From Nitrosomonas aestuarii (lineage in GTDB: Bacteria > Pseudomonadota > Gammaproteobacteria > Burkholderiales > Nitrosomonadaceae): a stretch of DNA of 64,000 nt. A program made the position numbers and the translations under genes. Location: assembly GCF_003046585.1 (NCBI RefSeq), contig NZ_QAAE01000004.1, forward strand, positions 186,001 to 250,000. The letters run 5' to 3'. The notes beneath the pieces are model-generated. The model saw only the letters and a list, made by a program, of their open reading frames with translations, did no database searches and was not told the origin of the DNA. Shown here one piece after another: positions 2,907 to 40,445 of the stretch; the first letter of the stretch is position 1; every line of letters starts with the position of its first letter.

Positions 2907-2943
2907 CCTGATTTCCCGAAGACAGATATTAATATAACTGACT

Positions 2944-14301: not shown

Positions 14302-15562
14302 TATAGCCAGGTCCCCTGCCGCGAGAATCGCGTGCAAAATAACTCACTTCGCCCAACGGCACCACCACCAGACCTGTCGGCGTGACATGATAGCGACGCC
14401 GGTCTTCTTCCGGGTTATAACCGATACGGGCATTAGATTCGATAATGTTATGCCGGTCTACGATAACCCGGCGCAAGCGTGCGCCGCGGCAAATCCGCAC
14501 ATAATCCATAATAATACAATCTTCCAGGTCCGCGCCGGGTTCCACAATTGTTTCACGGCGAATGATGCAGTTGCGAACGTTGGCTTGATCTATGACCGTT
14601 GCCGCACCAAGTAAACTGTTGTCTATTTGACCGTTTATTATTCTCGCCACCGGCCCTTGATAATTACTGGAAAAAATCGGCCACTGTGGATTAAAAGCAT
14701 CAAAACGCGGCTGCATTCCCAATACATCCTGGTTGGCTTCAAAATAAGCGTCAAGAGTACCTACATCACGCCAATACCCCATTTCTTCGTATGTCTTTAT
14801 ACCCGGTATTGCATTAGTGGCGAAGTTGTAAGCGAACAGTCTGTGCTTGCTTTTCAACAACATCGGCAGAACATGTCGCCCAAAATCGGTTTCTTTCCGC
14901 TGATGCGAAACTTCCAGCGCCTCGATCAAAACATCCGCATTAAACAAATAATTGCCCATGGAAGCAAAGGCCCGGTTTGGATCTGAAGGCATCGCCTTAG
15001 GGTGTTCAGGTTTTTCCTGGAACGCCGTAATTCTGCCATCACTATCCGCCTCGATAATACCGAAATCCGATGAACGTTCAATGGGTACCGGCAGTGCCGC
15101 CACACTGACGTCAGCCCTTTCTTGCATATGAAACCGCACCATTTGCCGAATGTCCATGCGGTAGATATGATCAGCCCCGAACACTACAACAATATCCGGT
15201 TTGTGCTCTTTGAGCAGATTAAGGTTTTGATACACCGCATCGGCGGTGCCTGTAAACCAGGATTTGTCATCTTGCATCTGTGGTGGTGTCACTGTGACGA
15301 AATGACCTGGCAGCATGGCAGAAATTCCCCAGGCCTTGCGAATATGTTCGATCAGCGACTGAGACTTATATTGCACCAGTAAATAAATAGCGCGAATTTC
15401 TGAGTTAACCAGATTACTCAGAACAAAGTCAACGATTCGATAGCGTCCCCCGAAAGGCACTCCGGGTTTACAACGTTCCGCAGTCAGCGGTTTCAGCCGG
15501 CTGCCCTCACCTCCGGCCATCACAAAGGCTAAAATCCTAGGTATGTATCGTTTCTCCTGCAT
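14294..15562 (-). CDS. glgC: Glucose-1-phosphate adenylyltransferase (ADP-glucose pyrophosphorylase)
   Basis: A 422-residue enzyme making ADP-glucose from glucose-1-phosphate and ATP, the committed step of classical glycogen synthesis. The nucleotide-binding motif [11 protein letters not shown] is at residues 17-27, followed by [18 protein letters not shown]. The C-terminal half shows the left-handed beta-helix repeats ([22 protein letters not shown]). AGGAGGTAGCGTC gives a strong ribosome binding site. No glycogen synthase (glgA) or GlgM accompanies it in this window, so the consumer of ADP-glucose must be encoded elsewhere. Confidence 0.95.
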
Positions 15563-15574
15563 GACGCTACCTCC

Positions 15575-18901: not shown

Positions 18902-18915
18902 GTTATCTCCTCTTG

Positions 18916-24167: not shown

Positions 24168-27100
24168 TTATTTATTTAACTCATGCCTGCCTATTCTTGA
24201 TTTAAATTTATCATCCAGATAAAGGTAAATAACAGGCGTAATAAACAGCGTAATCACCTGCGAGAACAATAGTCCTCCGACCACTGTGAGACCAAGTGGC
24301 TGACGCAGCTCAGCACCCGCACCAAGACCGAAAGCTATGGGAAGCGCGCCCATTAATGCGGCCACCGTAGTCATCATAATCGGCCGAAATCGCAATAAGC
24401 AAGCAGACCGAATGGCCTCAATCGGTTTAATGTGCATACTACGTTGCGCATCGAGCGCAAAATCAATCATCATAATTGCATTCTTCTTCACTATCCCAAT
24501 CAATAACAAAATCCCGATCATGGCAATAATCGATAATTCAATATTGAATAACCATAATATCGCCAGTGCGCCAGCAGCCGCTGAAGGTAACCCGGAGAGA
24601 ATAGTGATGGGATGTATATAGCTTTCGTACAGCACCCCCAGCAAAACATAAATCACAAAAATTGCCATGATGATCAACACTATCTGGCTCATCTGAGAAG
24701 ATTCAAAGGCTGCAGCATCTCCTGCATAGCTCGCGAGCACACTTTCAGGTATATTCAAATCCTGTTTTAGCTCAGCAATTCGCATCGAAGCATCCCCCAG
24801 TGCAACACCGGGGGCCAGATTGAAAGAGATTGTTACCGATTCCAGTTGTCCGGTATGGTTGATGGCAACTGGCCCCACCTCACGTTCTGCGAAAACAACA
24901 GTAGATAATGGTATTAATGTACCATTTTTGCCGCGCAAATGAATTTTGTCAAAAGCACTTTCATCCATTTGATCCTCGGCTATAACCTGCATAATAACTT
25001 TATAGCTGTTACTCGAAGTATAAATCGTTGAAACCTGGCGTTCACCAAATGCGCTATAGAGAACAGACCGGATATCTGCCATTTGCACACCCAGCAAATT
25101 GGCCTTATCACGATCAATATTAAGCCTCACTTGCAAGCCTTTCAACTGCATATCACTGGTAACATCACGAAAAATATGCTGCTCCTTAAGCATATGCGAT
25201 ATTAGTTTATCAGCGGCATTATGCAGATTATCGGAATGTACACTGCGCAATACATATTGATAACGACTTTTACTCGTGCGTGCACCGAGTCTCAGATTCT
25301 GAACAGGACTGATAAAAACTCTTATTCCAGGAATCGCGCCCACATCACGACGTAGTTTTTCAGCTATTTCCTCTATGTGCGGGCGCTCATTACGCGGCTT
25401 AAAAGTCACGAACATGCGTGCATTATTGCTGTCTGTAACATTGATACTCAGGATTTCGACTGCGGGATGAATTCGTATTACCTTTTCCGCCTGTTGCAAT
25501 AAAGTAACCATGGCGGGAAAAGAAATATCCTCAACTGCTTCCACAGTAATAATTGCCTGTCCGGTATCCTCATTCGGAAAAAAGCCTTTAGGTAAAATCG
25601 TAAACAATACGATTGTCGCTATCAAAGTGCTCAGTGCAATTCCAAGTATTATGCGTTTATGAAGTAATGCCCAGTCAAGCGCACATTCATATATTTTCGA
25701 TATTCGGACAAAACCACGCTCAAACCATTTCTGCCACTTGGCATTTTTTTCATTTCTTATTAATGGCTCTGCCAGATACCGACTAGCCATTACAGGAACA
25801 AGTGTCAGCGATACTAACGCTGACGTCAATACGGCAATCCCGACAACGGCAGCAAATTCATGAAATAACAATCCAATTACACCGGGCATAAAAAAAACTG
25901 GTATAAAAACCGCAACCAGCGAAACAGAAATAGAAATAATAGTAAAGCTAACTTCCTTTGACCCTTGCAATGCTGCTTGCAGCGGTGGTGCACCATTCTC
26001 GATATGGCGTACAATATTTTCCAGCACAACTATGGCATCATCAACAACCAATCCGACCGCGAGTGTAATGGCAAGTAATGAGATATTATTCAGGGTATAG
26101 CCGAATAATTGCATGAAAACCACTGCTCCCAGCAGCGATATCGTCAATGACAGCGTTGGTATCAAAATTGCGCTGGGCTTGCGCAGAAAAACAAAGACCA
26201 CCAAAACAACAAGCATAATCGTCAGAATCAGCGTCACTTCAATGTCATGAATGGCGTCCCGGACGGAAATTGACCTGTCACTGAGCAACTTGAGTTGAAC
26301 TGATGACGGCATCTGTGCATTTAATCCAGGCATCAGCATTTTAATCGCATCAACGGCTGCTACAGTGTTCGCTCCTGGTTCACGCTGTACTGCCATTGTA
26401 ATTGCACGTTCACCATTAATCCAGATTGTACTTTTAATTGATTCCACACTGTCTTCAACCTGTGCCACATCTGATAAACGTACCGGGGCGCTCCCTTGAG
26501 GCGCTGCCACAATAAGATCGGCAAATGCTTCGGCATTATTGAGTTGACGATTGGCTTGAATAGTCAGGGTCTGACGTGACCCATCAAGTGTACCAACCGG
26601 TGAATTAGCATTTGCAGTACTCAGTACGTCCGCAAGATCATCAATCGTTAAATTACGTGCGGCAAGGGCTGCAGAATTCACGCGTATACGTACAACATAC
26701 TTTTTTTGGCCATTAATTTGCACCTGCGCCAAGCCTGGAAGTGCAGATATAGCAGGCGATATCAGATTCTCAGCAAATTCGTTCAAATCCGCCAGCGGCA
26801 TTGTAGGTGATGTTAAAGCAAGATGAATAATCGGCGCTTCGGCTGGATTGATCTTGCTGTAGGACGGTGGCAAGGTCATTTCAGCAGGCAGCAAGGGCTG
26901 GACACGCAGCAATGCTGCCTGCACATCTATGGATGCTCTGTCCATCGGATGATTCTGATTAAATTCCAGTGTGACTGAACTCTCACCGAGTATGCTTGCT
27001 GAGCTGATCACAGAAAGACCTGAAATGGCGGATAATTCCCTTTCCAATTGAGTCGCCACCGCAGAAGCCATTGTTTCAGGACTGGCACCTGGAAGTTCAG

Positions 27101-27245
27101 CTTTGACCACAATAGTGGGCGCATCGTAACTGGGCAATGCAGCAATTGGCAGATTATTATAAGCAATGACGCCAGCTATGATTAGCGACACTGATAATAA
27201 TACCGTCATAACCGGACGGCGAATGCATAATTCAGATAGATTCAT
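24168..27245 (-). CDS. RND efflux transporter, HAE1 family (MdtB/MdtC/AcrB-like)
   Basis: A 1025-residue inner-membrane pump subunit. It has the 12-helix RND layout with an N-terminal helix (CIRRPVMTVLLSVSLIIAGV), two large periplasmic loops and the proton-relay motif VGLVVDDAIVVLEN in TM4. The second-half motif LLLIGIVKKNAIMMIDFA is also present. The sequence resembles the MdtB/MdtC branch more than AcrB. Its ATG overlaps the stop of the periplasmic adaptor gene (ATGA). No outer-membrane channel gene is nearby. The pair lies just downstream of the siderophore locus on the same strand, so a role in siderophore or metal export is possible but unproven. Confidence 0.9.
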   Translation of the reverse strand: MNLSELCIRRPVMTVLLSVSLIIAGVIAYNNLPIAALPSYDAPTIVVKAELPGASPETMASAVATQLERELSAISGLSVISSASILGESSVTLEFNQNHPMDRASIDVQAALLRVQPLLPAEMTLPPSYSKINPAEAPIIHLALTSPTMPLADLNEFAENLISPAISALPGLAQVQINGQKKYVVRIRVNSAALAARNLTIDDLADVLSTANANSPVGTLDGSRQTLTIQANRQLNNAEAFADLIVAAPQGSAPVRLSDVAQVEDSVESIKSTIWINGERAITMAVQREPGANTVAAVDAIKMLMPGLNAQMPSSVQLKLLSDRSISVRDAIHDIEVTLILTIMLVVLVVFVFLRKPSAILIPTLSLTISLLGAVVFMQLFGYTLNNISLLAITLAVGLVVDDAIVVLENIVRHIENGAPPLQAALQGSKEVSFTIISISVSLVAVFIPVFFMPGVIGLLFHEFAAVVGIAVLTSALVSLTLVPVMASRYLAEPLIRNEKNAKWQKWFERGFVRISKIYECALDWALLHKRIILGIALSTLIATIVLFTILPKGFFPNEDTGQAIITVEAVEDISFPAMVTLLQQAEKVIRIHPAVEILSINVTDSNNARMFVTFKPRNERPHIEEIAEKLRRDVGAIPGIRVFISPVQNLRLGARTSKSRYQYVLRSVHSDNLHNAADKLISHMLKEQHIFRDVTSDMQLKGLQVRLNIDRDKANLLGVQMADIRSVLYSAFGERQVSTIYTSSNSYKVIMQVIAEDQMDESAFDKIHLRGKNGTLIPLSTVVFAEREVGPVAINHTGQLESVTISFNLAPGVALGDASMRIAELKQDLNIPESVLASYAGDAAAFESSQMSQIVLIIMAIFVIYVLLGVLYESYIHPITILSGLPSAAAGALAILWLFNIELSIIAMIGILLLIGIVKKNAIMMIDFALDAQRSMHIKPIEAIRSACLLRFRPIMMTTVAALMGALPIAFGLGAGAELRQPLGLTVVGGLLFSQVITLFITPVIYLYLDDKFKSRIGRHELNK

Positions 27246-28465
27246 TGCGTCTCTATTTCGAAGCCATGTTTTTCTGAAGCACTCCGATCTGGAGTTTGGA
27301 CCAGCCGGTTACTGGCCTGAAGGACGCTATAAGCGGTGTTATCATAGGTGGCCGATTCGACGACAACACTACCTGGCGTTATATTCTGAGCACCTTCTGC
27401 AACAACCCGCACGCCAGACGCGATGCCTTCTCCTTCAATTACAGCAAGACCATCCTGGATCAAGCGCACATCAACTGGCCGAAAAATTACGCTGCTATCT
27501 TGCTCTATTACATAAACAAATTTTTTCTTGGGACCAGTTTGAACTGCCTGCGCAGGAACTGTAAAAACACCGGCAAGCAGTCGCGGTGCAAGCATAACTT
27601 TGGCGTACATTCCTGGCCAAAGATAGTTATTTGAATTGGAAAATTCAGCCTTAAGACGAATAGTGCCACTCGCGGTATCTACTGCGTTATCAACAAATAT
27701 TAAAGAACCTTGCTGTATAGTCTGTTCTATTTGCACACTGACATTTACCTGCCCTTTTGTAAGTGCTTGCTGTATGGTATTGAACTCCCGCTCTGGCAAC
27801 GAAAAGCTGATATGCATCGGATCAATTTGCGTGATGCTGACCATTGCAGCATCATCTGGCGTTACCAAGCTTCCCGGATTCACTGGTATCGCACCTGTAC
27901 GCCCCGAAATGGGCGCAATAATCTCAGTAAAACTGCGGATCACATTTGTTGCTTCCACAGCTGCGCGGTCGAATCCAAGCTGGCCGCGCAGACTATCCAC
28001 TTGACTATGTACCGCATCCAGAGCCGCATGCGAAATAAAGCCCTTATCGAACAACTCTCGGTGGCGTTGAAGCTGCCGTTCGGCATTTGCCAGATCGGAA
28101 CGGGATTTAGCCAGCCGCGCTTCAGCTTTCCTGTGATTAGCCTCTGCAACACGCGCATCCAATGTAAACAATTTGTCACCTTTCTGAACAAACTGACCCT
28201 CCCTAATATGTACGACTTCAATCGTAGCGCTGATCTGTGGGCGTACATCTACCATCTGTTTCGCTGTCACAATCCCGTTGGCTACAAGTCTGACAGGCAC
28301 ATCAATCTGAGAAACTTCAGCACTCACTACCTGCACGACATCCCTACGTACATCTTTATCATTTTGAGCGGAACCCGCTTGCTGGTACCAAAACCAGATA
28401 CTGTATAACAATGAGACAAATAAAAAACTTTGAAATATTGTTCGTATGATTTTCACATTAAACAT
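27242..28465 (-). CDS. RND efflux periplasmic adaptor subunit (membrane fusion protein)
   Basis: A 407-residue HlyD/AcrA-type adaptor. An N-terminal membrane anchor (IIRTIFQSFLFVSLLYSIWF) is followed by the barrel-sandwich half RLVANGIVTAKQMVDVRPQ, a coiled-coil hairpin around residues 95-150 and the second half IIAPISGRTGAIPVNPGSLV. A beta-barrel and membrane-proximal domain complete it. The ATG at 28465 is preferred to an upstream in-frame TTG (28498) that lacks a ribosome binding site. It overlaps the pump gene by four bases. The gap to the PepSY gene upstream is about 100 bases, so read-through from the siderophore operon is possible. Confidence 0.87.
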   Translation of the reverse strand: MFNVKIIRTIFQSFLFVSLLYSIWFWYQQAGSAQNDKDVRRDVVQVVSAEVSQIDVPVRLVANGIVTAKQMVDVRPQISATIEVVHIREGQFVQKGDKLFTLDARVAEANHRKAEARLAKSRSDLANAERQLQRHRELFDKGFISHAALDAVHSQVDSLRGQLGFDRAAVEATNVIRSFTEIIAPISGRTGAIPVNPGSLVTPDDAAMVSITQIDPMHISFSLPEREFNTIQQALTKGQVNVSVQIEQTIQQGSLIFVDNAVDTASGTIRLKAEFSNSNNYLWPGMYAKVMLAPRLLAGVFTVPAQAVQTGPKKKFVYVIEQDSSVIFRPVDVRLIQDGLAVIEGEGIASGVRVVAEGAQNITPGSVVVESATYDNTAYSVLQASNRLVQTPDRSASEKHGFEIETQ

Positions 28466-28566
28466 TGTGGATTCAGATCCTGTTTCTTCGAAATACAAAC
28501 ACCGTTATTAAGTCCAATTCTTTGAGCGATAAAATTTGAAATAAAAAAATAAAAATATTAATTAAA

Positions 28567-29769
28567 TCATGATATTAATTTATAAAATAGACGCAAAGTC
28601 CAAGCCCCAAAGCGCTTACTCACACAAAAACAATAATCTAAAAGATTACCTGCGTATTTAATCAAGGATACCTTGTAAACTTGCTTGCGCTTCTCTGTCT
28701 TTCTCTTATTCCGCCACATAACATAGCCAGTAAAAAACAAGACGGTCATAAAAAAACCGGCAATTGCTTGTAAAATACGGGTAGGCAGTCCACCTGCCAC
28801 ACCCACATGTACTGGATACAGTAGGTTATAGATGCGCGTCCCCAAAGGAGCTGTTAACGCATTCTCGAACAACAGCATTTCGCCTATATATTGATCGAAA
28901 AAAATAAAGCTCCTGCCGTTGGGGTGAAGCTCTGCTGAATTTTTTTTCCGAACAATCCAGGAAGATTGCGGCGTTTGTGGAAAACTTATCCAGGTTGTTT
29001 GAACAGGCAACAGGCGATCAGCCTGTTGTAATAAATCATCAACTGAAGGTAATCTGTTCGTCTTCCTAGACGGATCGGATAAAGGTGACGCCAGCCTTGG
29101 CGGGCTAACTGTCAGAAAATTAAACAACTCGGCAGTCGTTTTATTAAAGACCAGGCAAACGCCCGTTATGGCAATGATCAATAGAAAAAATACCGTATAG
29201 ATCCCGAGTGCGCGATGCATATCAAAAATCACCTTTTTCCAGGAACTCGACCAGTTCACACCGAAACCTTGAGAGACTCTGCCGCTTGGTGGATACCACA
29301 AGTAAAGACCGGTAACTCCCATACAAATCAACAACAATCCACCAACGCCAAGAATAATTTTTCCACGTTCTCCAAATAGAAGCTGTGTGTGCATAAGCGT
29401 TACCCAGCCCATGAATGTATCTTTTTGTTGGTGTGCACCGATTAACTCACCACTGTAAGTATCTGCATAAACAAACAAATCATGCGCATTATTCATTTTC
29501 AACAGATAGGTCTGCTCGGGCATACGCGGCATGCGGAGAGAAAAGATGCTGTCCTGCGGGTATGCGCGTTTGACCGCATCCAATATAGTTTGCACGGGAA
29601 CCCGCTCGACACCTGCTTCCGTTGTCATTAATTCTGGATATATGAATGTCTCGATTTCCTCCCGGAACACAATCAAACTACCAGTCAGCGAAACGATAAC
29701 CAGAAAAAAACCAGCCACCAAACCAGTGTAAAGATGCAAATTAAAAACGATTCGACGCACTTTCAACAT
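28567..29769 (-). CDS. PepSY-associated transmembrane protein (iron-uptake associated)
   Basis: A 400-residue inner-membrane protein of the PepSY_TM family. It has about four membrane helices, the first starting RRIVFNLHLYTGLVAGFFLV, then LILGVGGLLLICMGVTGLYLWYP-type segments, and periplasmic PepSY regions between. RRIxFxLHLxTG is the family signature. Relatives (PiuB/FoxB-like) sit in siderophore loci and are linked to periplasmic reduction or release of iron. It follows the SbnG-like gene by 50 bases and is probably the last gene of the siderophore operon. No ABC importer is encoded nearby, which would fit a periplasmic iron-release role; that is inference. Confidence 0.82.
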   Translation of the reverse strand: MLKVRRIVFNLHLYTGLVAGFFLVIVSLTGSLIVFREEIETFIYPELMTTEAGVERVPVQTILDAVKRAYPQDSIFSLRMPRMPEQTYLLKMNNAHDLFVYADTYSGELIGAHQQKDTFMGWVTLMHTQLLFGERGKIILGVGGLLLICMGVTGLYLWYPPSGRVSQGFGVNWSSSWKKVIFDMHRALGIYTVFFLLIIAITGVCLVFNKTTAELFNFLTVSPPRLASPLSDPSRKTNRLPSVDDLLQQADRLLPVQTTWISFPQTPQSSWIVRKKNSAELHPNGRSFIFFDQYIGEMLLFENALTAPLGTRIYNLLYPVHVGVAGGLPTRILQAIAGFFMTVLFFTGYVMWRNKRKTEKRKQVYKVSLIKYAGNLLDYCFCVSKRFGAWTLRLFYKLIS

Positions 29770-29819
29770 AGAAGACGTTTTGATGCGATATTCCGTCCAA
29801 CAGTTATTTTCTTTAAAAA

Positions 29820-30590
29820 TTAATCTAATTGCTTAAATCCTGCCAGATGCGCTTTGATCGCACGGCATCCCACTCCCCTGTCATCTCCCAGCAAATACGC
29901 CTGAATACAATATTTCTGTTCAATTTCGGACCGACTGGAGGCGCGGGGAACAGCACAAAATGGAATGCTTCTGTTAAGGCATGTTAAAGCGATTTTATCG
30001 ATGGCATGTTGCACGTGCGGATGCAGCGGCTGTCCTGGCACGCCATAGGACTGGGACAGATCGATCGCGCCCTCGAGCACCATATCGATGCCAGGGACAG
30101 ACAAGATGTCATCCAGATTCTCAACACCCTCCTTATCTTCGATCATGACAACCACCATAATCTCCGAATTGGCGCGTTCGAAATAGGTAAGCAAATCAAT
30201 TGTTCCAAAACCCGTTGTGCGCCCTCCGCTGATCCCGCGTTTCCCTGCCGGATAATAACGGGCTGCTGCAACGGCTTGCTCAGCTTCTGCACGACTCTGC
30301 ACATGCGGCACAACAATACCTTGTGCACCACAATCCAAAGCTCGCAAGATAGTTCCTGGATTCGCATCAGGTACGCGCACCAGCGGCGTAATTCCGGCGC
30401 ACTCGGCTGCCCGTATCATGTTTTCAATGGTTTCTGGATTAACACAAATATGTTCCATATCCAGAATAACGAAATCATAGCCAGCGTAGCCTATCATCTC
30501 GACCAACAGTGGCGACGGGATCGAATTCAGCAATCCAAATACAGTTTTTTTATTACCCAGTTCACGTTTAAGTTGATTGATTTGTAACAT
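29820..30590 (-). CDS. HpcH/HpaI aldolase family protein, SbnG-like citrate synthase
   Basis: A 256-residue TIM-barrel class II aldolase of the HpcH/HpaI family. It has FVILDMEHICVNPE near the N-terminus, the metal-binding glutamate in VVVMIEDKEGVENLD, and MVLEGAIDLSQSYGVPG. In staphyloferrin B loci the homologous SbnG condenses oxaloacetate and acetyl-CoA to citrate for the siderophore. Its position seven bases after the PLP decarboxylase of a citrate-type siderophore operon makes the same job likely here. GGAG precedes the ATG. A catabolic aldolase function cannot be excluded from sequence alone. Confidence 0.8.
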   Translation of the reverse strand: MLQINQLKRELGNKKTVFGLLNSIPSPLLVEMIGYAGYDFVILDMEHICVNPETIENMIRAAECAGITPLVRVPDANPGTILRALDCGAQGIVVPHVQSRAEAEQAVAAARYYPAGKRGISGGRTTGFGTIDLLTYFERANSEIMVVVMIEDKEGVENLDDILSVPGIDMVLEGAIDLSQSYGVPGQPLHPHVQHAIDKIALTCLNRSIPFCAVPRASSRSEIEQKYCIQAYLLGDDRGVGCRAIKAHLAGFKQLD

Positions 30591-30597
30591 ATTCTGA

Positions 30598-31806
30598 TTA
30601 CTCCACAGGCAAGTACCATTTCATCGGGTATGGATGTCGCAAAAAATCATGGTGGGAAATATTCCAGGCATATGCACCTGCATAAGGAAATACCAGCAAA
30701 TCTCCACAGCATACCGATTTAACTGGGGCATCGAATGCCAACAAATCTTTCGGTGTACATAATTGACCCACAATACTTACCTTTTCATTTGAAATTTTTG
30801 GCCGCGTATAGGTATGGGACCATGCATGGACTGGTAACACATGGAATGGGTGGCTATGGCCCTGTGCATAGGGCGTACGGAAATGATGCGTACCACCTCT
30901 GCCGATCAGAAAATTCTTGCCATAACTGTGCTTGATATCGATGACCTGCATCACATAGTAGCCGCATGCCGCAGTAATATAACGTCCCAATTCAAATCGA
31001 ATATCAACCCCGGATAACACATCATTGTCTAACAATGTTGCCAATCCGGTGCTGAAAGTCTCCCAGTCAAATTGCTGCTCAGGCTGCCGGTAATTGATGC
31101 CGATACCACCACCAACATTGACATGATCAATGTTCAAATCATATTCGTCGCACCATTGGCGCACCTGTAACTGATAGGTTTCCAGTAATTTCAAATGAGC
31201 TTGGGCATTTAACTGGTGTGATAGCAAATGAAAATGAAAACCACGCAATTGAATTTCAGGATGAACCCGCAACCAACTCAGACATTCTTTTAACTGCTGG
31301 ATATGAATTCCAAACGGCGTGGGTTTCCCGCCCATAATCAAGCTGGATTTCACCAGATTGTCAACCGGCAAGTTGACGCGCAACAGTATCGCCGCCACCT
31401 GGCCAACCCGCTGTGCAATCTCGGCCAGTCGCTGTAATTCGTTAAAACTTTCGATATGCAAACACTCAACGTTATATTCAATCGCGCTACTGAGTTCCCG
31501 ATCTAGCTTGCCTGGTCCGCTAAAGACTACCGGAATATCGGCAAAATGTTCACGCACCCAGTCCAGTTCGCCGCCAGACGAAACCTCAAAGCCATTTACC
31601 AGTGGCGCCAATGTCTTTAAAACAGGCAAATCGGAGTTTGCTTTTATTGCATAGAACAACTTGCAATTATCCGGCAATGTATTAACAAGTCCGATCACAT
31701 GTTGGCGTAAGGCTTTCAAGTCATATACATAGGCACATATTGGCTCATCGGCTTTGTCTTCTGCATCTCGAATACTTGCAAAAACCTCCGACAATCTCAA
31801 CTTCAC
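30598..31806 (-). CDS. PLP-dependent decarboxylase, PvsE/SbnH-like (siderophore)
   Basis: A 402-residue fold type III PLP decarboxylase of the DapDC/LysA/ornithine family. The PLP lysine is K55 in FYAIKANSD. HVNVGGGIGINYR is the glycine-rich phosphate-binding loop, and FELGRYITAACGYYV and SVCCGDLLVFPYAGAYAW are family motifs. In vibrioferrin loci PvsE makes the ethanolamine unit by decarboxylating a serine-derived group; in staphyloferrin B SbnH acts on a citryl intermediate. The GTG at 31806 is chosen: it overlaps the upstream stop (GTGA) and has GGAGG at good spacing, whereas an in-frame TTG at 31812 abuts that site. Confidence 0.85.
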   Translation of the reverse strand: MKLRLSEVFASIRDAEDKADEPICAYVYDLKALRQHVIGLVNTLPDNCKLFYAIKANSDLPVLKTLAPLVNGFEVSSGGELDWVREHFADIPVVFSGPGKLDRELSSAIEYNVECLHIESFNELQRLAEIAQRVGQVAAILLRVNLPVDNLVKSSLIMGGKPTPFGIHIQQLKECLSWLRVHPEIQLRGFHFHLLSHQLNAQAHLKLLETYQLQVRQWCDEYDLNIDHVNVGGGIGINYRQPEQQFDWETFSTGLATLLDNDVLSGVDIRFELGRYITAACGYYVMQVIDIKHSYGKNFLIGRGGTHHFRTPYAQGHSHPFHVLPVHAWSHTYTRPKISNEKVSIVGQLCTPKDLLAFDAPVKSVCCGDLLVFPYAGAYAWNISHHDFLRHPYPMKWYLPVE

Positions 31807-33638
31807 ACGCAACCCTCCATTAAAGAGCCTAATGGATTATTGACCGGCAAGTAGTCAAACGCACGATCTGGTCGCTTAAAAAAACGGTTGATCAAATTAG
31901 CTTTGCCTGGAAATGGTTCACCACTCAGTAATGCATTGACGCGGCGTGCTGAGACGCTGTCGCCGTAATGTCTTTGATAAGCATACAAATGATGACGCAC
32001 CACCGACCATAAACGATTCTGCATTGCCGGCTTTCCTGTACTGAGTTGGTTGATTGCTTCACATAAATTATTGACAAACAGGCAATAGCAGACCCGTTTC
32101 CATCCCTGATCACCGCTGTACCAAAGTGCTTCACGTGCACGTGAGCTGATGGTCTCCAGTTGCTTTTCGTCATAACGTTCTTGCACCAGCTTGACACCCT
32201 CAAAATCCCGTAAAAAGATCTGTCTCGGTTCTCCCTCAATCAGTCCAATCAGTACATTTTGCAAGTGCGGCTCAAAGATGATGCCATGTGCAAAATAACA
32301 ATAAAGGACCGGATACATGATTTCAGCAACATAGCTTGAGAACCATTGCTCAGCCGCTGCCTCAAAGGACATATCGTTCCGTTGTCTCATATCCGTGAGC
32401 AATTCATGAAGACGGGCTTCACCATAGACATGGTTACCGAATAAAGCACCTGCTAACAGCGGTGTTACACCGGGTAACGCGACTTGATTAAAATTCTGTC
32501 GCAGAATCATACCAAACCCTTCAGTCACTTCCTTATCCTGCTGAGAATTACCTGATTCCAAGTCTATTGAAATAAATGCCGGCTCCTCAAGTATCTGGAT
32601 ATTCGGAAATTCTCGCCTCAAACCGGGCATCAAGGTACGCATGACCTCAGTTATTTTTACGGCACCCTCAAGTTCATAAACTGCGTTCTTGCGCACGCAG
32701 TTGGTAATCCGAATATTCAAGGAACATTTATAAAAATATGGGTTTTCAGGGTTAAACAACGTTCGGATCGACGAAGTAGGATAATAATGCTCGCCTTGTT
32801 GTCCCACATTACGAATATAACCATCCCGGATAGCCGTTTTAACACTGGGATGAGTGAGCAGATAACGCGCCTGCCATGGATGAGTTGGGATCAGAGCAAA
32901 CTCATCGTTTCGAATAATACTGTCAGGTGCCTGTGCCGCAATTATCTCATCACATGTTTCAGAAATCACTGACCTTTGCATTATAAATTCCCGCCGCACT
33001 GCAAAATAATGTAACGGAAAGCTCGCACCCATTTCCGGGGAATATCGCCGCATATCTTTATCGGTTACGCCCTGGCGACTTTTGGGCGCAGGATGAAAGG
33101 GATGCCCATAAACCAGCGACTGCTCGGATTCAATGAATGCCAGCAAGGATTGCTGCGAAAAAGATCGTGGATTGAATGTGCTCAATATGGCGGCTGTCAC
33201 GGCAACGCTGTCATGTATCTGTTGCATCAATTCTTTGTTTAAAGGTACGCTATATTTCAATGACAGCTCATTTAACAAAAACCCCACAAGCATCTGCCAA
33301 TCCAACACGATCCAGGGTTTTCCGAAAGACTTATGATAAAATGGAGATTGATAGCGAAAGTTGCCAGTAGTCGAAGCGCCACTGACCACCGTTAACAGGC
33401 GATTCCCGGTAAATGGCAGGTAAATATGTAGAATACGGCCACCGCTACGTTGTAAAGCCAAACGTACAGACGCCGGATTATCATTCTGACTGAACAAAGG
33501 CCCTACGTTTAAATGTCCATCTGGACCTGCCACCTCACGACAGTAACAATTTAACAGCGTTTCCATGGTGCGTCGGCCTGCTTCTTGTTGCGCTATCACA
33601 TCAGAATCGATAACTTCTGCCAAGTTATTTAAGTGCAT
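31803..33638 (-). CDS. IucA/IucC-family NIS siderophore synthetase, PvsD-like
   Basis: A 611-residue NRPS-independent siderophore synthetase, which joins a carboxylic acid (citrate or 2-oxoglutarate units) to an amine or alcohol using ATP. The IucA_IucC domain includes LIPTHPWQARYLL, SSIRTLFNPENPYFYKCSLNIR and VRKNAVYELEGAVKI. The FhuF-like C-terminal part includes HGIIFEPHLQNVLIGL and IFLRDFEGVKL. Second of two NIS enzymes in the cluster. It follows the exporter gene by 21 bases and overlaps the decarboxylase gene. By gene order it corresponds to pvsD. Confidence 0.9.
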   Translation of the reverse strand: MHLNNLAEVIDSDVIAQQEAGRRTMETLLNCYCREVAGPDGHLNVGPLFSQNDNPASVRLALQRSGGRILHIYLPFTGNRLLTVVSGASTTGNFRYQSPFYHKSFGKPWIVLDWQMLVGFLLNELSLKYSVPLNKELMQQIHDSVAVTAAILSTFNPRSFSQQSLLAFIESEQSLVYGHPFHPAPKSRQGVTDKDMRRYSPEMGASFPLHYFAVRREFIMQRSVISETCDEIIAAQAPDSIIRNDEFALIPTHPWQARYLLTHPSVKTAIRDGYIRNVGQQGEHYYPTSSIRTLFNPENPYFYKCSLNIRITNCVRKNAVYELEGAVKITEVMRTLMPGLRREFPNIQILEEPAFISIDLESGNSQQDKEVTEGFGMILRQNFNQVALPGVTPLLAGALFGNHVYGEARLHELLTDMRQRNDMSFEAAAEQWFSSYVAEIMYPVLYCYFAHGIIFEPHLQNVLIGLIEGEPRQIFLRDFEGVKLVQERYDEKQLETISSRAREALWYSGDQGWKRVCYCLFVNNLCEAINQLSTGKPAMQNRLWSVVRHHLYAYQRHYGDSVSARRVNALLSGEPFPGKANLINRFFKRPDRAFDYLPVNNPLGSLMEGCV

Positions 33639-33659
33639 GACTTCTCCTATTAATTATTA

Positions 33660-34832
33660 CTATGAATCACTTAGCCGCTCCCGGCATAATGTCAATCCAG
33701 CCAGATGACAACCGGCAATAAACATAATCAAAGCACCGATAAAGAAAGGCGCCTTCATATCAATAGCCTGTACAGCAACACCCGCTACTAAACCGGCAGC
33801 AACTGCTCCCCACTTAGAATTGCTTTCGAACCATCCGAACGTACGTCCGGCATTGTCACAGCGCACAATGCCTACAATCAAAACATGCAAACCGATAAAC
33901 CCCAACGTCATACTGAATCCCATTAAGATACGCCAGGCCATTACCGAAAATAATGAAGGAAACAACGCTTGACCGAACAGGGATAAAGCAAACAGAAAAT
34001 AGGAGACAGACAGCATGCGCACCGGCTCGTATTGCCATCGATTTCGACTTAACGGAATTGCAATCAATAAATAAACAAGGTGTGGGAGTCCGAACAATAA
34101 ACCAGCTACTGCTGGCATATCTGATTCAGTACTCATCTGAATAAAAGGTACAAAATAAGGAAAAGTAATGACAGTAGCAAAAATGAATGCAAACTGCAGC
34201 AGGTATAATTCTGTCGGCGTTACTTCGGGCGCTTTGCTTTTACTCTGTAAGGTCGGAACCGATTCCGGTTGCACAGAATAATTCGGCAGCAAGACAATAC
34301 AAACAGCGGCAATTAGCGGCAACAAAGCCAGATAACGGTATAACTCCAGCGGGGAATCAATCATAATGAACAGACCCAACCCAACTGGCGCAATAACGAG
34401 TGCCGCACGGGCAGACCACTGCATTAATGTCAGGCTGTTGGCAAGCAGCGCGCCATTGACTACTGTTGCCAAATAAGCGTTAGATGCGGCAAAAGTTCCA
34501 CCAAGCAGTCCCTGTAAGGACAATGCAACAAAAAACACCCAAGTGTTAGGAGCAAATCCTGCCAGCAAAAAGCTGCCCGCCAGCCCGATCTGAGCACGTA
34601 GCAACAGCGGTTTTTTACCATACCTGTCCGCCAGCTTCCCCCACCAGGGACTGCTTATTGCTGCAAAAAATGTCGGCACGACGTAAAACCAGCCAGCCAG
34701 ATAAACTTCTTCACTGTGTAATGATTTATCCAGTATCAATGCAAAATAAGGTGGCATACCAAGTGCCGCAAAGGCCGCGACAAAGTGGCAAATCATAATT
34801 GTAGTAACAATATGACGCTGATTTTTATTCAT
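33660..34832 (-). CDS. MFS transporter, probable siderophore exporter, PvsC-like
   Basis: A 390-residue major facilitator with 12 predicted helices. The conserved loop 2-3 motif is visible as WWGKLADRYGKKPLL, the drug/siderophore exporter form. The start overlaps the upstream NIS synthetase stop by four bases (ATGA). In vibrioferrin (PvsC) and staphyloferrin B (SbnD) clusters the MFS protein between the synthetase genes exports the finished siderophore, and the same role is inferred here. Confidence 0.87.
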   Translation of the reverse strand: MNKNQRHIVTTIMICHFVAAFAALGMPPYFALILDKSLHSEEVYLAGWFYVVPTFFAAISSPWWGKLADRYGKKPLLLRAQIGLAGSFLLAGFAPNTWVFFVALSLQGLLGGTFAASNAYLATVVNGALLANSLTLMQWSARAALVIAPVGLGLFIMIDSPLELYRYLALLPLIAAVCIVLLPNYSVQPESVPTLQSKSKAPEVTPTELYLLQFAFIFATVITFPYFVPFIQMSTESDMPAVAGLLFGLPHLVYLLIAIPLSRNRWQYEPVRMLSVSYFLFALSLFGQALFPSLFSVMAWRILMGFSMTLGFIGLHVLIVGIVRCDNAGRTFGWFESNSKWGAVAAGLVAGVAVQAIDMKAPFFIGALIMFIAGCHLAGLTLCRERLSDS

Positions 34833-36676
34833 ATCACCCTCAAAAAATTGGGTGAGCTCATACCATAAAATTTGTTAACATCATTTGCACCTGTCTCGTT
34901 TTTCTCCGCCAGCGTAGCCGCGGTCAGCAAGTATTTTATATAGAGTCGATCATTCTTCAGCAGCAGTTGACGGGCGAATGAAACATCTTCACCTTCCGCC
35001 ATCAATTCTTTCAGCACAACATCAATTCGCCGCCTGACCTGAGAATACAAAGTATTGACGGACAAACCAAGAATAGGTCCGATACCCTCTACCAGCACGG
35101 CAATATTGAGCTGCAAGGTAATGGTCGCAAACATCTGCCCAAGCGGCAATGTGTCAGAAACAATAATGCGCCGATCCTGCAGGTTGGCCACATGCGTTGC
35201 CAAATATGGCCAACGCATGGTCAGATAGTCAAAATGAATACGCGCCGCATCGTTGTCTTTCAAGAGCAAACGCAAGCGTGGACTTTCCTGACTCAAGACA
35301 ACAACCGAATTCTGCTGATTCGACTCCAGCGCAATCCCATAGCGTAGCCAGAGTAATAAATGGAAACGCAGTGTAAGTTCAAGGTAATCATTCCAGAATA
35401 ATTCCAGATTCCCGTCATAATATTTCTCTGCTGCCTCCTCAATCACCGTTTTGCCGGCAGGTGTTTTCGCCAGTAGCGCGGCCACCGGAATAAGCGTGCT
35501 GTTACTCAGGCTTTCGACTGGATAACGACGGAGGATATAACCCAAAAACATCTGATGATCCGCGTGTCCGCCACAATCTTCCTCAGTCAGCACCAGACGG
35601 TTAGCAACCGACGGCTCACTGGCTGCAATACCGGAAAGTAAAGACTGGATGCAATGTCCATCATGAATCGTACTCGGCTTAATGGTACGAATGTTTTTTG
35701 CACCCAGAGTGCGGATAGTCAACGGCAATTTTAGATGCCATTCCGGCATATCAAGCAGTATTACCGTGCGTACAGATAAAGTAGGCGCGACCGTAAGATA
35801 AGGCTTAGGCGCTCGAATGACGTTAGGTATTGCAGCCGCACTTAGTAGATCTTCAAGTTGATATTCCCACACGAATGGATGGACCGGAATAAGGTCGTGC
35901 GTATCTGCCAGCGCAGCAGGCAAGCCGATGGTATCAAATGAAGGCCATAATTGTGGCAAAACTTGTTTGTTAAATTCGCTTGGATAAAAAAATGCGTTTG
36001 GTACTGCCAGCCAATGGATCAGAAACTTATTCTGGAATTCCGGGCTGTAAGCAGCAAGCGATTTAAAATCAAACCCTGGTTTGGCACGTGCAGTCGGATA
36101 AAAGGGATGATCAAGAAATGCGCCAAGCCGATCGTAGTGTATCAGACGGGATGCCCAACTCGGCAACTCAGCGCCCGTTACTTTACCATTCAGTGCGTTG
36201 TATTCATTAAACCAGCGCTCACGCTCATTTTCGCAGATCTGTCGATGTTCCACAGCTAGTTTACATTCTTCTGCAAATACTTTAAAAGCTGACACAGCAG
36301 CCGGACCCAAGCCTTGAGAAAAGCACGCAATAAGGTCATCCAGCGTATACATCTCCTCAACTTTATTATCTTTCTGCCATAACAATGGCAATCCGACTCC
36401 ACGCCAACGTTGCATAAACGTGGTTTGAGCTACTGGAATCCATATATTTCCATCACCGAAATGACTGATTTTGAGCCACTGATGATATCCTTTCAGGTGC
36501 ATGCCCCACTTTGTCGACAGCGCATCACCCGGCATTACTTCCGCCTGATCAATACAGTCCCGAACATTTTCACGCAACAAAGTATCCACCACACGTTGAT
36601 AAATATACTGCGCATGATCGGCGTGCTCATGCATCACAGGAAATTCATTTGTCTCGCCATACATGATTGCCTTCAT
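34829..36676 (-). CDS. IucA/IucC-family NIS siderophore synthetase, PvsB-like
   Basis: A 615-residue NIS synthetase. Visible motifs are LIPVHPFVWEYQLEDLL, LTVAPTLSVRTVILLDMP, TIRTLGAKNIRTIKPSTI and the C-terminal LRYGIALESNQQNSVVVL. The ATG at 36676 is chosen because it overlaps the pvsA-like stop (ATGA) and has GGGAA upstream; an in-frame start 51 bases earlier lies deeper inside that gene. By order it corresponds to vibrioferrin pvsB. The two NIS enzymes differ enough in motifs to act on different condensations. Confidence 0.9.
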   Translation of the reverse strand: MKAIMYGETNEFPVMHEHADHAQYIYQRVVDTLLRENVRDCIDQAEVMPGDALSTKWGMHLKGYHQWLKISHFGDGNIWIPVAQTTFMQRWRGVGLPLLWQKDNKVEEMYTLDDLIACFSQGLGPAAVSAFKVFAEECKLAVEHRQICENERERWFNEYNALNGKVTGAELPSWASRLIHYDRLGAFLDHPFYPTARAKPGFDFKSLAAYSPEFQNKFLIHWLAVPNAFFYPSEFNKQVLPQLWPSFDTIGLPAALADTHDLIPVHPFVWEYQLEDLLSAAAIPNVIRAPKPYLTVAPTLSVRTVILLDMPEWHLKLPLTIRTLGAKNIRTIKPSTIHDGHCIQSLLSGIAASEPSVANRLVLTEEDCGGHADHQMFLGYILRRYPVESLSNSTLIPVAALLAKTPAGKTVIEEAAEKYYDGNLELFWNDYLELTLRFHLLLWLRYGIALESNQQNSVVVLSQESPRLRLLLKDNDAARIHFDYLTMRWPYLATHVANLQDRRIIVSDTLPLGQMFATITLQLNIAVLVEGIGPILGLSVNTLYSQVRRRIDVVLKELMAEGEDVSFARQLLLKNDRLYIKYLLTAATLAEKNETGANDVNKFYGMSSPNFLRVI

Positions 36677-37881
36677 GAGTCGATTTCCCATACCAATTGC
36701 TCGCCGATACGGCTCATTTCCTGACACAAGTACTGAGCATCTAAGCCCGTACCGCGTAAAACACCGAGATAGTCCTTATTAGAGTTTGTCAAATTGATCA
36801 TATCTCCAATCGCACGCAGTGGTTTGAAGGTGATCTGAATATCTTCGACTTGTTGAAAAAATGGCTCAGGCGCATAAAGAAGGCGGCCACCAGAACTTGC
36901 GGTAAAATAACGAATCAAAGCCGCACCTGGTGAAAAATTCATATGTGGAAGCGACTCCCCAAGATAAAGCCTCAGAACAAGTTCAAATAATGGAATATCA
37001 AGCGCATCCTGCAGCATAAATTCGCGATAATCACCGATATTGCGATAATTAATCTCAATTAAACGGGGGCCTGCACCTGTCATGACGAATTCTGTGTGAC
37101 AAGCGCCAAAACCAATACCGAAGTTGCGAATAATGTTTAACACCTCGGTTTCCTGTTCCACAGTGAGTCCAGTCCCCCAGCTTGCTTCCAGTTCGATAAA
37201 ATGAGGCGGTGGTGACAATTTCACCTGAAAACCACCCAGCACATGAAGCCTTTCATTATCACCAAGCGTTTCCAGCGTATAAAGCGGGCCCTCAATGTAC
37301 TCCTCAATGAGCAATGATTGGCCCGGATGAATATTCCAGGCCGCAGCACATTGCGTCTTGAGTTCAGTCCGGTAATAAATGAGACTCACTTGTTGACTGG
37401 CAACGCCTTCGCATGGCTTGGTAATGCATGGAAACGGAATACTGTCCAAAATTTGCTCAAGTTCCGTCTTATTGGATACCACTGCGTACCAAAGTCCATC
37501 AATCCCTCGGCGCTGTAGTTCGGCGCGCATTTCCGCTTTATGTTTAGCGCGATATGTAACATGCCAGTTTTTGCAAGGTAAACCGAAATAATCTGCAGCA
37601 ATCGCGGTACTTGTCTGCAAGTGATCACTGTTAGAAAAAATAGCTGCTGGTTTCTGGGGGCGGCGTGTAACCGCTTCGATTACAGCAAGCGGATTGAACA
37701 CGTCACAGCTAAAAATTGCTGCAGGGTAAGCTGATAACGTGGATTGACTGAAATATTCTCGATGCGCTTCTGCGTTATCGGTCAGCAGCACTACAGACAA
37801 TCCAAGGCGTTGCGCTGCCGGTATAAATCCGGTATTAACGGAATCAGTTATTACATGAGTTAAAATAATTATCTCTCGCAT
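36673..37881 (-). CDS. ATP-grasp domain protein, PvsA-like (siderophore assembly)
   Basis: A 402-residue ATP-grasp ligase. An N-terminal Rossmann-like part (IIILTHVITDSVNTGFIPAA) precedes the ATP-grasp fold with ITKPCEGVASQQVSL, LLIEEYIEGPLYTLE and the metal-binding ending RLIEINYRNIGDYREFM. In vibrioferrin loci PvsA is an ATP-grasp enzyme proposed to make an amide linkage in the alanine/2-oxoglutarate half. No ATP-grasp enzyme is part of the classic staphyloferrin B cluster, so this gene tips the call toward a vibrioferrin-type product. A strong AAAAGGAG site precedes the ATG, 14 bases after the receptor gene. Confidence 0.87.
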   Translation of the reverse strand: MREIIILTHVITDSVNTGFIPAAQRLGLSVVLLTDNAEAHREYFSQSTLSAYPAAIFSCDVFNPLAVIEAVTRRPQKPAAIFSNSDHLQTSTAIAADYFGLPCKNWHVTYRAKHKAEMRAELQRRGIDGLWYAVVSNKTELEQILDSIPFPCITKPCEGVASQQVSLIYYRTELKTQCAAAWNIHPGQSLLIEEYIEGPLYTLETLGDNERLHVLGGFQVKLSPPPHFIELEASWGTGLTVEQETEVLNIIRNFGIGFGACHTEFVMTGAGPRLIEINYRNIGDYREFMLQDALDIPLFELVLRLYLGESLPHMNFSPGAALIRYFTASSGGRLLYAPEPFFQQVEDIQITFKPLRAIGDMINLTNSNKDYLGVLRGTGLDAQYLCQEMSRIGEQLVWEIDS

Positions 37882-37895
37882 GACAACTGCTCCTT

Positions 37896-39977
37896 TTAAA
37901 AATCAAGTTGGGCTGTGAATAATAATGTTCGTCCTGGCGCAGGCATACGGCCTCGACTAAAATCAACACCTCTGAAAAAATAGTGATGATTGAACATGTT
38001 ATTGATCGCCAGACCCGCTTTGATTTTTCTTTTATCCCAGCGAAAATTACGGGTTATTTGTGCATTCCATACCCAGAACGATGGAATTCTCCCGATGGAA
38101 CCTTCTTCATTTTCGATCAGCGTATTAGCGCCATCGCTAAATGACTTGCTTTGATAAAGACCATTCAGGTTCCAGTTCCAGTCTGCGCGACTATAATTAG
38201 CCCAGAAGTTAAGCTGGTGATGTGCTGCCAAAGGAAGTTCATTGCCTTTAAATTGACCTGAACGCTGTTCCGTATCAATATAGGTGTAACCCGTTCTGAG
38301 ATCGAGCCCGTCAATCTGTTTCGGTTGCCACGTAAATTCAGTTTCAATACCTTGATGGCGAGATTTTCCAAGATTTCGAAAACCCACATCCTGACTTACA
38401 AATTCCAGTTTGTTGTCAAAATCTATGCGAAAGGCAGCAAGATTGACGCCAATGTTTTGAAGCGGAGTCAAACGAAGCCCCACCTCAAAATTATCTGCCC
38501 GTTCGGCAGCCTGGGCTCCTCCAAATGTGATCTGTGTAAACTGTACCGGACGCAGCGATTCATGAAAGTTGCCAAATAAAAATATGGCATCAGTGATCTG
38601 ATAACCAACATCGACCCCCGGCAACCAGTCTTTGGTTGGATTGCTCTCTTTAGAACCGGTTTGATTATTACGAAAATCCAGATACACCTGCTCGCGGCGG
38701 ACGCCTGGCGTGATCTTCAACTTGTCATCGAAAAGAAAAAACGTATCGCTAATATAAGCAGCAAAAGCATGATTACCAAAACGCCAGTCACGTGCAACGC
38801 TAAATTCATTTGTCAATAAATCACGCGCATCAACAATGTAATCAACCTCTTCACGCATATAACGTGCGCCGATAGAAATTTTTTGCTTAATTCCCTTGTT
38901 GATATAAAAAGAAAGCCGCGGTTCACTACCATACACTAAAAATTCCCTTGGCGAGGATCGTTCCAGTGTAGACGTCTCATCCGCATTCAGAGCATCACCA
39001 AAGAAGAACTGTCGGTCACTGCGATGCGCAAAATTTGTCCAGCTGAATTCAGCACCATTATCAAAGTACTGGTTATAAATCAAACTCCCTCTCAAAGTAT
39101 CCCCTGTAAATCGATCTAACGGGCGAGTGGACTGGTGGCGATCTTGTTTATATGATTCGGGTGTTAATGCACCGGGCAAATTATTCTTGGTTTTATAATA
39201 TTGTAGACTGCCTTTGATATCGATATTGTTAGCGGGATACCAGTTTACATCAGCCATGATATTGGTAACCTGCGTATCGGAGTGTGCTCGTATCGAGTCG
39301 CCGTTAATAAAATTACCCTGTAATTGCAGTCCGAGTTTATCGTTAACGAAACCACCCACACGAATATAGCTGTCCGCCAGCATGCGTTCAGTGGAAGGCG
39401 ACAAAGAGAGTGTTTCTCGTATAGTCATTGTTTTCTTTGCCGGAATTCGCTTTGTTACAAAATTAATAACGCCGCCAACGTTATTAGGGCCATAATGAAC
39501 GGCAACACCGCCTCTCGCCACATCGATGCTTTCTATAGCATTCATCGTTAGCGGAAACAACGACAGGCCGGTTTGCCCATAAGGCGCAAGCGTAACAGGT
39601 ATCCCATCAACCAGAATCAACGCCTGTTCGCTTCGTAACGGGCTGAGCCCGCGTATCCCTATATTAGGTAAAATTCCTGTACCACTTTCATCAAAAACTC
39701 GCACACCCGGCACATTGCGTAACGCATCTTCCACAGTACGTGCACCAGATTCCGTCAGTTCCTTGTTGGTAATTACAGTTCGCGCTCCCGGATGACTCTT
39801 CACTGTTTCCGGTGTTGGATAACCCAGCCAGTCAGATTTGATAGTCAGCTCTTTAAATGTAGTAACCGATTGATCTTGTTGCTGCGCCTGCACCAGACCA
39901 GAAATAAAGAGCAACAGGTAAGACACAACAATCGATTTAATGGCAACATACATTACCCATTGGAGACTTCTCCGCAC
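37896..39977 (-). CDS. TonB-dependent outer-membrane ferric-siderophore receptor (FecA/PvuA-like)
   Basis: A 693-residue receptor with a signal peptide ending near VQA at about residue 31, a plug domain (VITNKELTESGARTVEDAL, NVPGVRVFDESGTGILPNIG) and a 22-strand barrel ending in LFTAQLDF with the C-terminal aromatic residue needed for insertion. It resembles ferric-citrate-type receptors, suiting a citrate-based siderophore. No N-terminal STN signalling domain is present, so it is not a sigma/anti-sigma transducer. The start is GTG at 39977 with TTTAGGAG at ideal spacing. It is first in the siderophore operon and is probably Fur-controlled. Confidence 0.92.
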   Translation of the reverse strand: MRRSLQWVMYVAIKSIVVSYLLLFISGLVQAQQQDQSVTTFKELTIKSDWLGYPTPETVKSHPGARTVITNKELTESGARTVEDALRNVPGVRVFDESGTGILPNIGIRGLSPLRSEQALILVDGIPVTLAPYGQTGLSLFPLTMNAIESIDVARGGVAVHYGPNNVGGVINFVTKRIPAKKTMTIRETLSLSPSTERMLADSYIRVGGFVNDKLGLQLQGNFINGDSIRAHSDTQVTNIMADVNWYPANNIDIKGSLQYYKTKNNLPGALTPESYKQDRHQSTRPLDRFTGDTLRGSLIYNQYFDNGAEFSWTNFAHRSDRQFFFGDALNADETSTLERSSPREFLVYGSEPRLSFYINKGIKQKISIGARYMREEVDYIVDARDLLTNEFSVARDWRFGNHAFAAYISDTFFLFDDKLKITPGVRREQVYLDFRNNQTGSKESNPTKDWLPGVDVGYQITDAIFLFGNFHESLRPVQFTQITFGGAQAAERADNFEVGLRLTPLQNIGVNLAAFRIDFDNKLEFVSQDVGFRNLGKSRHQGIETEFTWQPKQIDGLDLRTGYTYIDTEQRSGQFKGNELPLAAHHQLNFWANYSRADWNWNLNGLYQSKSFSDGANTLIENEEGSIGRIPSFWVWNAQITRNFRWDKRKIKAGLAINNMFNHHYFFRGVDFSRGRMPAPGRTLLFTAQLDF

Positions 39978-40411: not shown

Positions 40412-40445
40412 AATAACAATAATAATAATGATAATGATTGTTATT
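40412..40445. promoter_or_regulatory. Fur-like operator, overlapping palindrome
   Basis: AATAACAAT and ATTGTTATT form a perfect nine-base inverted repeat around ATAATAATGATAATG. The 19 bases at 40424-40442 match the classical Fur box (GATAATGATAATCATTATC) at 15 of 19 positions by eye. It lies between the divergent siderophore receptor (minus strand) and the amidohydrolase (plus strand). Iron-dependent repression of the siderophore operon is the natural reading, although it sits about 450 bases upstream of the receptor start. Confidence 0.68.

Follow-up and report, generated by a model that had tools for sequence, protein, structure and literature searches.

What does a cell make, and how does it recover its iron, when a vibrioferrin-like gene set is followed directly by a putative citrate synthase and a PepSY protein? 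This question is raised by a locus of the ammonia oxidiser Nitrosomonas aestuarii, which lies in the 64,000-nucleotide stretch of contig NZ_QAAE01000004.1 analysed here (the window). The host genome encodes ammonia monooxygenase (genome search), and ammonia oxidisers have a high iron demand for their haem enzymes. Eight open reading frames (ORFs), each with the expected Pfam domains, follow one another on the minus strand with spacings of -55 to +50 bp, in the order receptor, ATP-grasp, NIS, MFS, NIS, decarboxylase, HpcH/HpaI and PepSY, just as a first-pass annotation of the sequence had described them. The reading that is held here with good confidence is that of a probably Fur-regulated vibrioferrin operon, in which an SbnG relative would supply the citrate and a FoxB-like protein would release the iron by reduction. 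It is predicted to be a compact vibrioferrin operon of the SbnG-bearing type, i.e. known parts in a variant arrangement:

37896-39977, minus strand: TonB-dependent receptor, probable ferric-vibrioferrin receptor (PF00593/PF07715)
36673-37881, minus strand: PvsA, ATP-grasp ligase (PF13535)
34829-36727, minus strand: PvsB, NIS synthetase (IucA/IucC; PF04183/PF06276; GTG start)
33660-34832, minus strand: PvsC, MFS exporter (PF07690)
31803-33638, minus strand: PvsD, NIS synthetase (IucA/IucC), AcsD-related (closest solved structure AcsD, 2w02)
30598-31812, minus strand: PvsE, pyridoxal-phosphate-dependent decarboxylase (PF02784/PF00278)
29820-30590, minus strand: SbnG/AcsB-type putative citrate synthase of the HpcH/HpaI fold (best solved relatives 4tv5/4tv6)
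28567-29769, minus strand: PepSY_TM inner-membrane protein, probable FoxB-type ferric-siderophore reductase (PF03929)

The genes for PvsA to PvsE are contiguous and stand in the vibrioferrin order, and the same receptor-pvs gene order was found again in many named genomes upon locus mapping, which excludes a chance arrangement. Identities to the plasmid locus of Vibrio fortis are 42% (PvsA), 36% (PvsB), 37% (PvsC), 33% (PvsD) and 47% (PvsE), while the receptor shares 41% with the V. fortis receptor that adjoins the genes of a FecBCDE-like importer, 23% with the other V. fortis receptor and 46% with its Marinobacter counterpart. In a tree of 33 NIS rows (in which, as the tool warned, long branches meet), PvsB falls inside a pvs-only clade of 10 rows with support 100/99, together with PvsB of Vibrio, Marinobacter and Rhodococcus; the sister of this clade consists of AcsA-type and SbnC-like enzymes. 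PvsD, which has AcsD as its best solved structure (E 4e-83), groups in a larger clade with PvsD/AcsD proteins and is thus of the AcsD/PvsD kind. The first-pass annotation had named NIS phylogeny as a test of its proposal, and the two synthetases do not both fall with aerobactin or achromobactin enzymes. Given these identities and the position of PvsB, vibrioferrin is the likely product as far as sequence can tell. (The start of pvsB overlaps pvsA by 55 bp and is a GTG, so the real start of PvsB may be further downstream. Against phage proteins, PvsA has a single weak match of 20%, and PvsD has none in PHROGs.)

The readings as achromobactin, staphyloferrin B or aerobactin were dropped on gene content and the NIS tree. 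The alternative that survives best is a vibrioferrin analogue, built on the same scaffold by a PvsA or PvsB that uses another amino acid or keto acid. Substrate specificity is not readable from sequence, and 42%, 36% and 41% identity to V. fortis (PvsA, PvsB and receptor) leave room for such a change, but the set of PvsA-E is complete and in vibrioferrin order, PvsB sits within the pvs clade, and the receptors encoded in pvs loci of Vibrio and Marinobacter are akin to that of the window, which makes an analogue unlikely. Marinobacter is a reported vibrioferrin producer (PMC6836290).

Among the related loci used for comparison, 80 genome loci had been picked as the top-ranking of 300 PvsD relatives, with the PvsD of the window as reference, so that this set is biased towards it. 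From 94 mapped loci (L031-L118, L137-L142), 32 without full PvsA/B/D/E and 2 near-duplicates were removed, leaving 60 pvs loci, for which PvsC was not required and in which the related Piscirickettsia loci L035 and L109 were both kept. A PvsD match at E<=1e-60 occurs in 6 of 369 sampled genomes of the wider class (the window's own genome included), and NIS genes in 4 of 41 genomes of the genus.

How the iron would be recovered is the second part of the question. No part of an ABC importer was found among the eight proteins by domain search, and a profile search of the whole genome found no FecCD permease either, the sole PF01032 match (27 bits) being an ABC-3 metal permease. This single FecCD-family match scores 225.8 bits as ABC-3 versus 29.5 bits as FecCD, and was therefore ruled out as a siderophore permease, so that the missing importer remarked on in the first-pass annotation extends to the genome. 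Across the 41 genus genomes, FecCD is strong in one only (G009), the others having none or at most 36.3 bits; outside the own genome these weak matches are raw profile scores, the comparison with ABC-3 having been made for the own genome only. The counts agree with a review, according to which ABC transport of ferric iron and siderophores is lacking in N. eutropha (PMC9693385).

In the place of an importer stands the PepSY protein, for which a sequence search of the PDB gives FoxB (7abw) as the sole match at E<=1. The AlphaFold model of the PepSY protein (mean pLDDT, the predicted local distance difference test score, of 85.6) also has FoxB as top fold match, at Z 30 across 338 residues and followed by an entry at Z 9.3. 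All 15 aligned PepSY proteins have His 12, 127, 185 and 321, and each of these aligns with a histidine of FoxB; presumably, these four are haem ligands. Proteins of the FoxB type have been described as reductases of ferric siderophores in the periplasm (PMC10866019, PMC13001220). Going by the model and the sequence match, the PepSY protein is probably a FoxB-type reductase that releases iron in the periplasm, and the earlier suggestion of periplasmic release is well supported by the FoxB match, the fold, the four histidines and the lack of an importer. Moreover, a PepSY_TM gene lies within ~7 kb of each of the five NIS clusters in the 41 genus genomes.

Alternatively, the PepSY protein could carry out another redox or metal task (e.g. 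oxidase maturation), while an unrelated permease takes ferric vibrioferrin inward. A Bordetella PepSY_TM protein has indeed been tied to haem-copper oxidase function (PMC13038864), and the importer search covered the FecCD family. This is nevertheless improbable, since FoxB is the only PDB sequence match and by far the top fold match, the gene is located in a siderophore operon, and a 60% identical relative adjoins the receptor of a staphyloferrin B-like cluster in another Nitrosomonas genome (G021).

Among the 60 pvs loci, 23 have a PepSY gene, 9 have FecCD and none has both. The PepSY matches differ in strength, with 10 loci at >=400 bits and five Methylococcales loci at 72-79 bits, and the FecCD counts are lower bounds, because stretches end early (in L113 the match is cut and below threshold, and in the L109 genome FecCD genes lie on the pvs contig outside the counted stretch). 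Layouts differ: window-like loci combine SbnG with PepSY and lack an ABC importer in the stretch, Marinobacter combines SbnG with an importer, and Vibrio has an importer only. The Vibrio loci (V. fortis and Vibrio sp. THAF190c) match the window in their five biosynthetic genes and the order of these, and have a related receptor, but carry FecCD importer genes and neither SbnG nor PepSY in the stretch; we take their genes to be pvsABCDE and pvu, as the records carry generic product names. The Marinobacter locus likewise has pvsABCDE and an SbnG relative, but with SbnG ahead of PvsA and FecCD importer genes in place of PepSY. The loci of Candidatus Nitrotoga and Thiobacillus have PvsABCDE-SbnG and a downstream PepSY 52-58% identical to that of the window, although no RND pair is seen adjoining and some have a second receptor gene between SbnG and PepSY. 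Plasmid pHG1 of Cupriavidus necator H16 has receptor-pvsABCDE-SbnG in the same order, but its receptor is 25% identical over 185 residues and no PepSY or FecCD was found in its stretch.

The third part of the question concerns the SbnG relative. Against solved structures it matches SbnG best (4tv5/4tv6, E 6e-67; 4tv5 is named as SbnG in PMC7139808), with the next aldolase at 2e-36 and others weaker. In a tree of 40 rows (38 rows chosen from the loci, the window protein and S. aureus SbnG), 30 siderophore-cluster proteins, including S. aureus SbnG and the AcsB-type aldolase of Sodalis, form one clade with support 99/98, while ten aldolase rows fall outside it, among them the second HpcH/HpaI gene of the own genome (contig 17). 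Long branches meet in this tree, so that the exact position of S. aureus SbnG within it is unsure. Several residues (window numbering) separate the two kinds; among them, Arg216 occurs in 58/58 SbnG-type rows versus 0/19 aldolase rows, Gln180 in 58/58 versus 1/19 and Ala175 in 57/58 versus 0/19. The kinship to SbnG that had been proposed at first sight is thus borne out by the best solved structure, the clade and the diagnostic residues.

The term 'hybrid', under which the locus was first presented, fared less well. An SbnG relative is present in 50 of the 60 deduplicated pvs loci, Marinobacter among them (L075 was scored positive though its gene is split over two ORFs), and is absent from ten (L035, L050, L062, L065, L109, L113, L114, L118, L139 and L140), which include both Vibrio loci; on the PvsB tree, at least 4 changes between its presence and absence are needed. 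The SbnG-type enzyme is therefore a usual component of the collected pvs loci outside Vibrio, which makes 'hybrid' misleading, and since a related aldolase, AcsB, also occurs in achromobactin clusters, SbnG alone does not imply a new product. Where the first-pass annotation had left the choice between vibrioferrin and a new citrate-based variant, the vibrioferrin-type biosynthesis thus stands (identities, PvsB clade), and SbnG as a pointer to a new product does not. In S. aureus, SbnG is described as forming citrate from oxaloacetate and acetyl-CoA and as sustaining staphyloferrin B synthesis without citrate from the tricarboxylic acid cycle (PMC7139808). By analogy of sequence, the window's enzyme is likely a second citrate-making enzyme, which would provide citrate for the siderophore under iron shortage. 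No link of vibrioferrin with SbnG was found in the open-access papers searched (most subscription papers being outside the search).

That the SbnG relative is instead a linked catabolic aldolase without citrate synthase activity is very improbable: it does share the HpcH/HpaI fold family, and among the relatives used citrate synthase activity is stated for the S. aureus enzyme only (PMC7139808), but its match to SbnG is ~100 bits above that to any other solved aldolase, it belongs to a supported clade of siderophore-cluster proteins with pvs linkage in most loci, and the separate ordinary aldolase of the genome sits in the other clade. An identity as ordinary aldolase was ruled out by the tree and the diagnostic residues.

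Upstream of the receptor gene, two sites bear on regulation, for which what we take to be the E. coli Fur consensus was used in the scan:

40424..40442, no strand assigned: Fur-box-like site, 15/19 versus the E. coli consensus
40456-40428, minus strand: promoter-like site, 10/12, overlapping the Fur-box-like site

The Fur-like site is the only 15/19 match in the window, and when the upstream stretch was shuffled 200 times, a score of 15 was reached just once. Upstream of the receptor in two related loci, the best Fur scores are 16 (L039) and 13 (L033). The promoter-like site is one of the two top scorers on the minus strand of the scanned stretch, where promoter-like sites are not in excess (37 versus 35.2 in shuffles). 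The Fur-like site lies ~450 bp before the receptor start, a distance that would allow for a long leader or an overlooked small gene. On this basis, the operon is probably Fur-regulated.

At its other end the operon may be longer than the eight genes, since two more follow the PepSY gene:

27242-28498, minus strand: RND periplasmic adaptor, possible member of the same unit (TIGR01730 above cut-off; TTG start)
24168-27245, minus strand: RND inner-membrane pump (1025-aa ORF, named RND from its own sequence)

The gap between PepSY and adaptor is 68 bp, without a site in the terminator scan, and adaptor and pump overlap by 4 bp; with its TTG, the real start of the adaptor may lie further downstream. 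Close relatives of both follow PepSY in L033 and L039 and in no other of the 88 mapped loci, some of which have short stretches; elsewhere in the 88 only a 23% pump (L060) and a 24% adaptor (L093) were found. The transcription unit may therefore extend past PepSY to adaptor and pump, and, judging by position alone, the RND pair may recycle or clear the emptied siderophore. In Bradyrhizobium japonicum, an RND pump exports periplasmic ferric siderophores, and a mutant in FsrB, a reductase like FoxB, is rescued when this pump is lost (PMC10760861). The systems of P. aeruginosa (FoxB) and B. japonicum (FsrB and ExsFGH) share with the window a membrane reductase of the FoxB/COG3182 type and, in B. 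japonicum, an RND pump (PMC10760861), but they serve foreign siderophores, whereas the reductase and pump of the window adjoin genes for the cell's own siderophore.

On the L039 contig (1347-17111), which was assigned to Planctomycetota by binning, the locus of the window is found again together with its PepSY and RND genes, at 62-83% identity; no match to ammonia monooxygenase was found in the L039 genome, and the contig is possibly misbinned. Elsewhere in the window, positions 10298-22839 (minus strand) hold a glycogen/trehalose-type block with GlgE, an amylase-maltokinase fusion, a GlgC-like nucleotidyl transferase and several enzymes of the alpha-amylase family.

Taken in the order of steps of the pvs and acs systems, the SbnG relative would convert oxaloacetate and acetyl-CoA to citrate when iron is limiting, PvsD would couple citrate to L-serine, PvsE would decarboxylate the product to citryl-ethanolamine, PvsA would add alanine, and PvsB would add 2-oxoglutarate to give vibrioferrin, which PvsC would export. 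Ferric vibrioferrin would then enter the periplasm through the TonB receptor, and there the FoxB-like PepSY protein would pass electrons via two haems and so release ferrous iron, which would cross the inner membrane via some other carrier. It should be added that a review assigns PvsA, PvsB, PvsD and PvsE otherwise than this scheme (PMC6836290). In its furthest form, the ten genes together would make up a closed periplasmic iron cycle (own citrate, export, re-uptake, reduction and re-export by RND, without entry of the siderophore into the cytoplasm), which is a tentative and rather doubtful extension.

Several points weigh against the reading as a Fur-regulated vibrioferrin operon with SbnG citrate supply and reductive release. 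The product, every reaction (citrate synthesis and iron reduction included) and the regulation are all inferred, and the amine and amino acid used by PvsA, PvsB and PvsD cannot be read from their sequences. The PvsD clade is partly unresolved and includes, besides AcsD, one staphyloferrin-type and one aerobactin-type synthetase. An ordinary citrate synthase gene is also present in the genome, so that the need for SbnG is not obvious. Block shuffles of the window contain on average 0.4 matches as good as the Fur-like site, which is thus not significant window-wide, and in the six Nitrotoga/Thiobacillus loci tested the best Fur scores are 9-12, without a comparable site. PepSY_TM occurs in 4/4 genus genomes with NIS genes yet also in 19/37 without, which leaves the link between PepSY and NIS suggestive only. 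The apparent mutual exclusion of PepSY and FecCD (0/60 with both) was not borne out by a kinship-aware pair test. Finally, FeoB_C was found in 0/41 genus genomes by profile search (7/14 control genomes being positive), so that the usual route for the released ferrous iron is missing.

Two known siderophore clusters share parts with the locus. The staphyloferrin B cluster has relatives of SbnG and of PvsE (SbnH) and, in Nitrosomonas genome G021, a PepSY gene, but it has three NIS synthetases as well as SbnA and SbnB; of these extras, none is in the window, as had been noted at first. No SbnA, SbnB or other diaminopropionate enzyme was found among the eight proteins, and the NIS synthetases on the window's contig stretch are two. 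The G021 cluster itself (L034, 483-14908) consists of three NIS genes, SbnG, SbnH, a receptor and the PepSY gene (60% to that of the window), with SbnA and SbnB above NCBIfam cut-offs. The cluster on Sodalis plasmid pSG1, presumably for achromobactin (the record has generic names), contains AcsD, AcsE and AcsB as counterparts of PvsD, PvsE and SbnG, but also two further NIS synthetases, a diaminobutyrate aminotransferase and an ABC importer, and neither PvsA nor PvsB; the AcsA and AcsC synthetases and the aminotransferase are absent from the window locus (domains, NIS tree).

Other NIS loci were met alongside. The own genome holds a second cluster, of aerobactin type (L037, C1:40001-60000, at 6929-12551), with two NIS genes, a GNAT acetyltransferase and a lysine/ornithine N-monooxygenase; a TonB receptor and another PepSY_TM gene lie close to it. 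N. eutropha Nm 57 (L072/L144, 364-9845) has two NIS genes, an MFS gene, a PvsE-like decarboxylase, a receptor and PepSY, without matches to PvsA, PvsB or SbnG; by size and order (ORFs of at least 300 aa in the stretch, part of the ORFs scanned) no aerobactin-type monooxygenase was found there. Because the contig starts with this cluster, some genes may be truncated or missing; aerobactin synthesis has been ascribed to N. eutropha in a review. The first 14 kb of contig 11 of genome G001, which has the genus code of the window's genome, are identical to L072. In L036 (G380, 1932-10978), a pvs locus looks as though it were decaying, with receptor, PvsA, PvsB and PvsC each broken into two ORFs. 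Twelve loci from Oxalobacteraceae and related bacteria (L093, L096, L099-L102, L104, L105, L107, L110, L112 and L117) have a PvsD-like synthetase, a PvsC-like exporter and a second NIS gene, without a match to PvsA, PvsB, PvsE or SbnG, and possibly make another citrate-type siderophore.

As for what the locus means for ammonia oxidisers, N. europaea gave no siderophore in a Chrome Azurol S assay (PMC3050691), and a 2022 review states that siderophore production had yet to be examined in vitro in any ammonia oxidiser (PMC9693385). The locus would be a tidy case of siderophore use in a genome where the profile search found neither FecCD permease nor FeoB, and, if the closed cycle is true, the freed iron would enter via a carrier yet to be assigned in ammonia oxidisers (FeoB in 0/41 genus genomes, strong FecCD in 1/41). 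Enzymes of the SbnG type, familiar from staphyloferrin B synthesis, prove usual in the collected pvs loci outside Vibrio, and for the Nitrosomonas group the locus provides a predicted siderophore product that can be tested.

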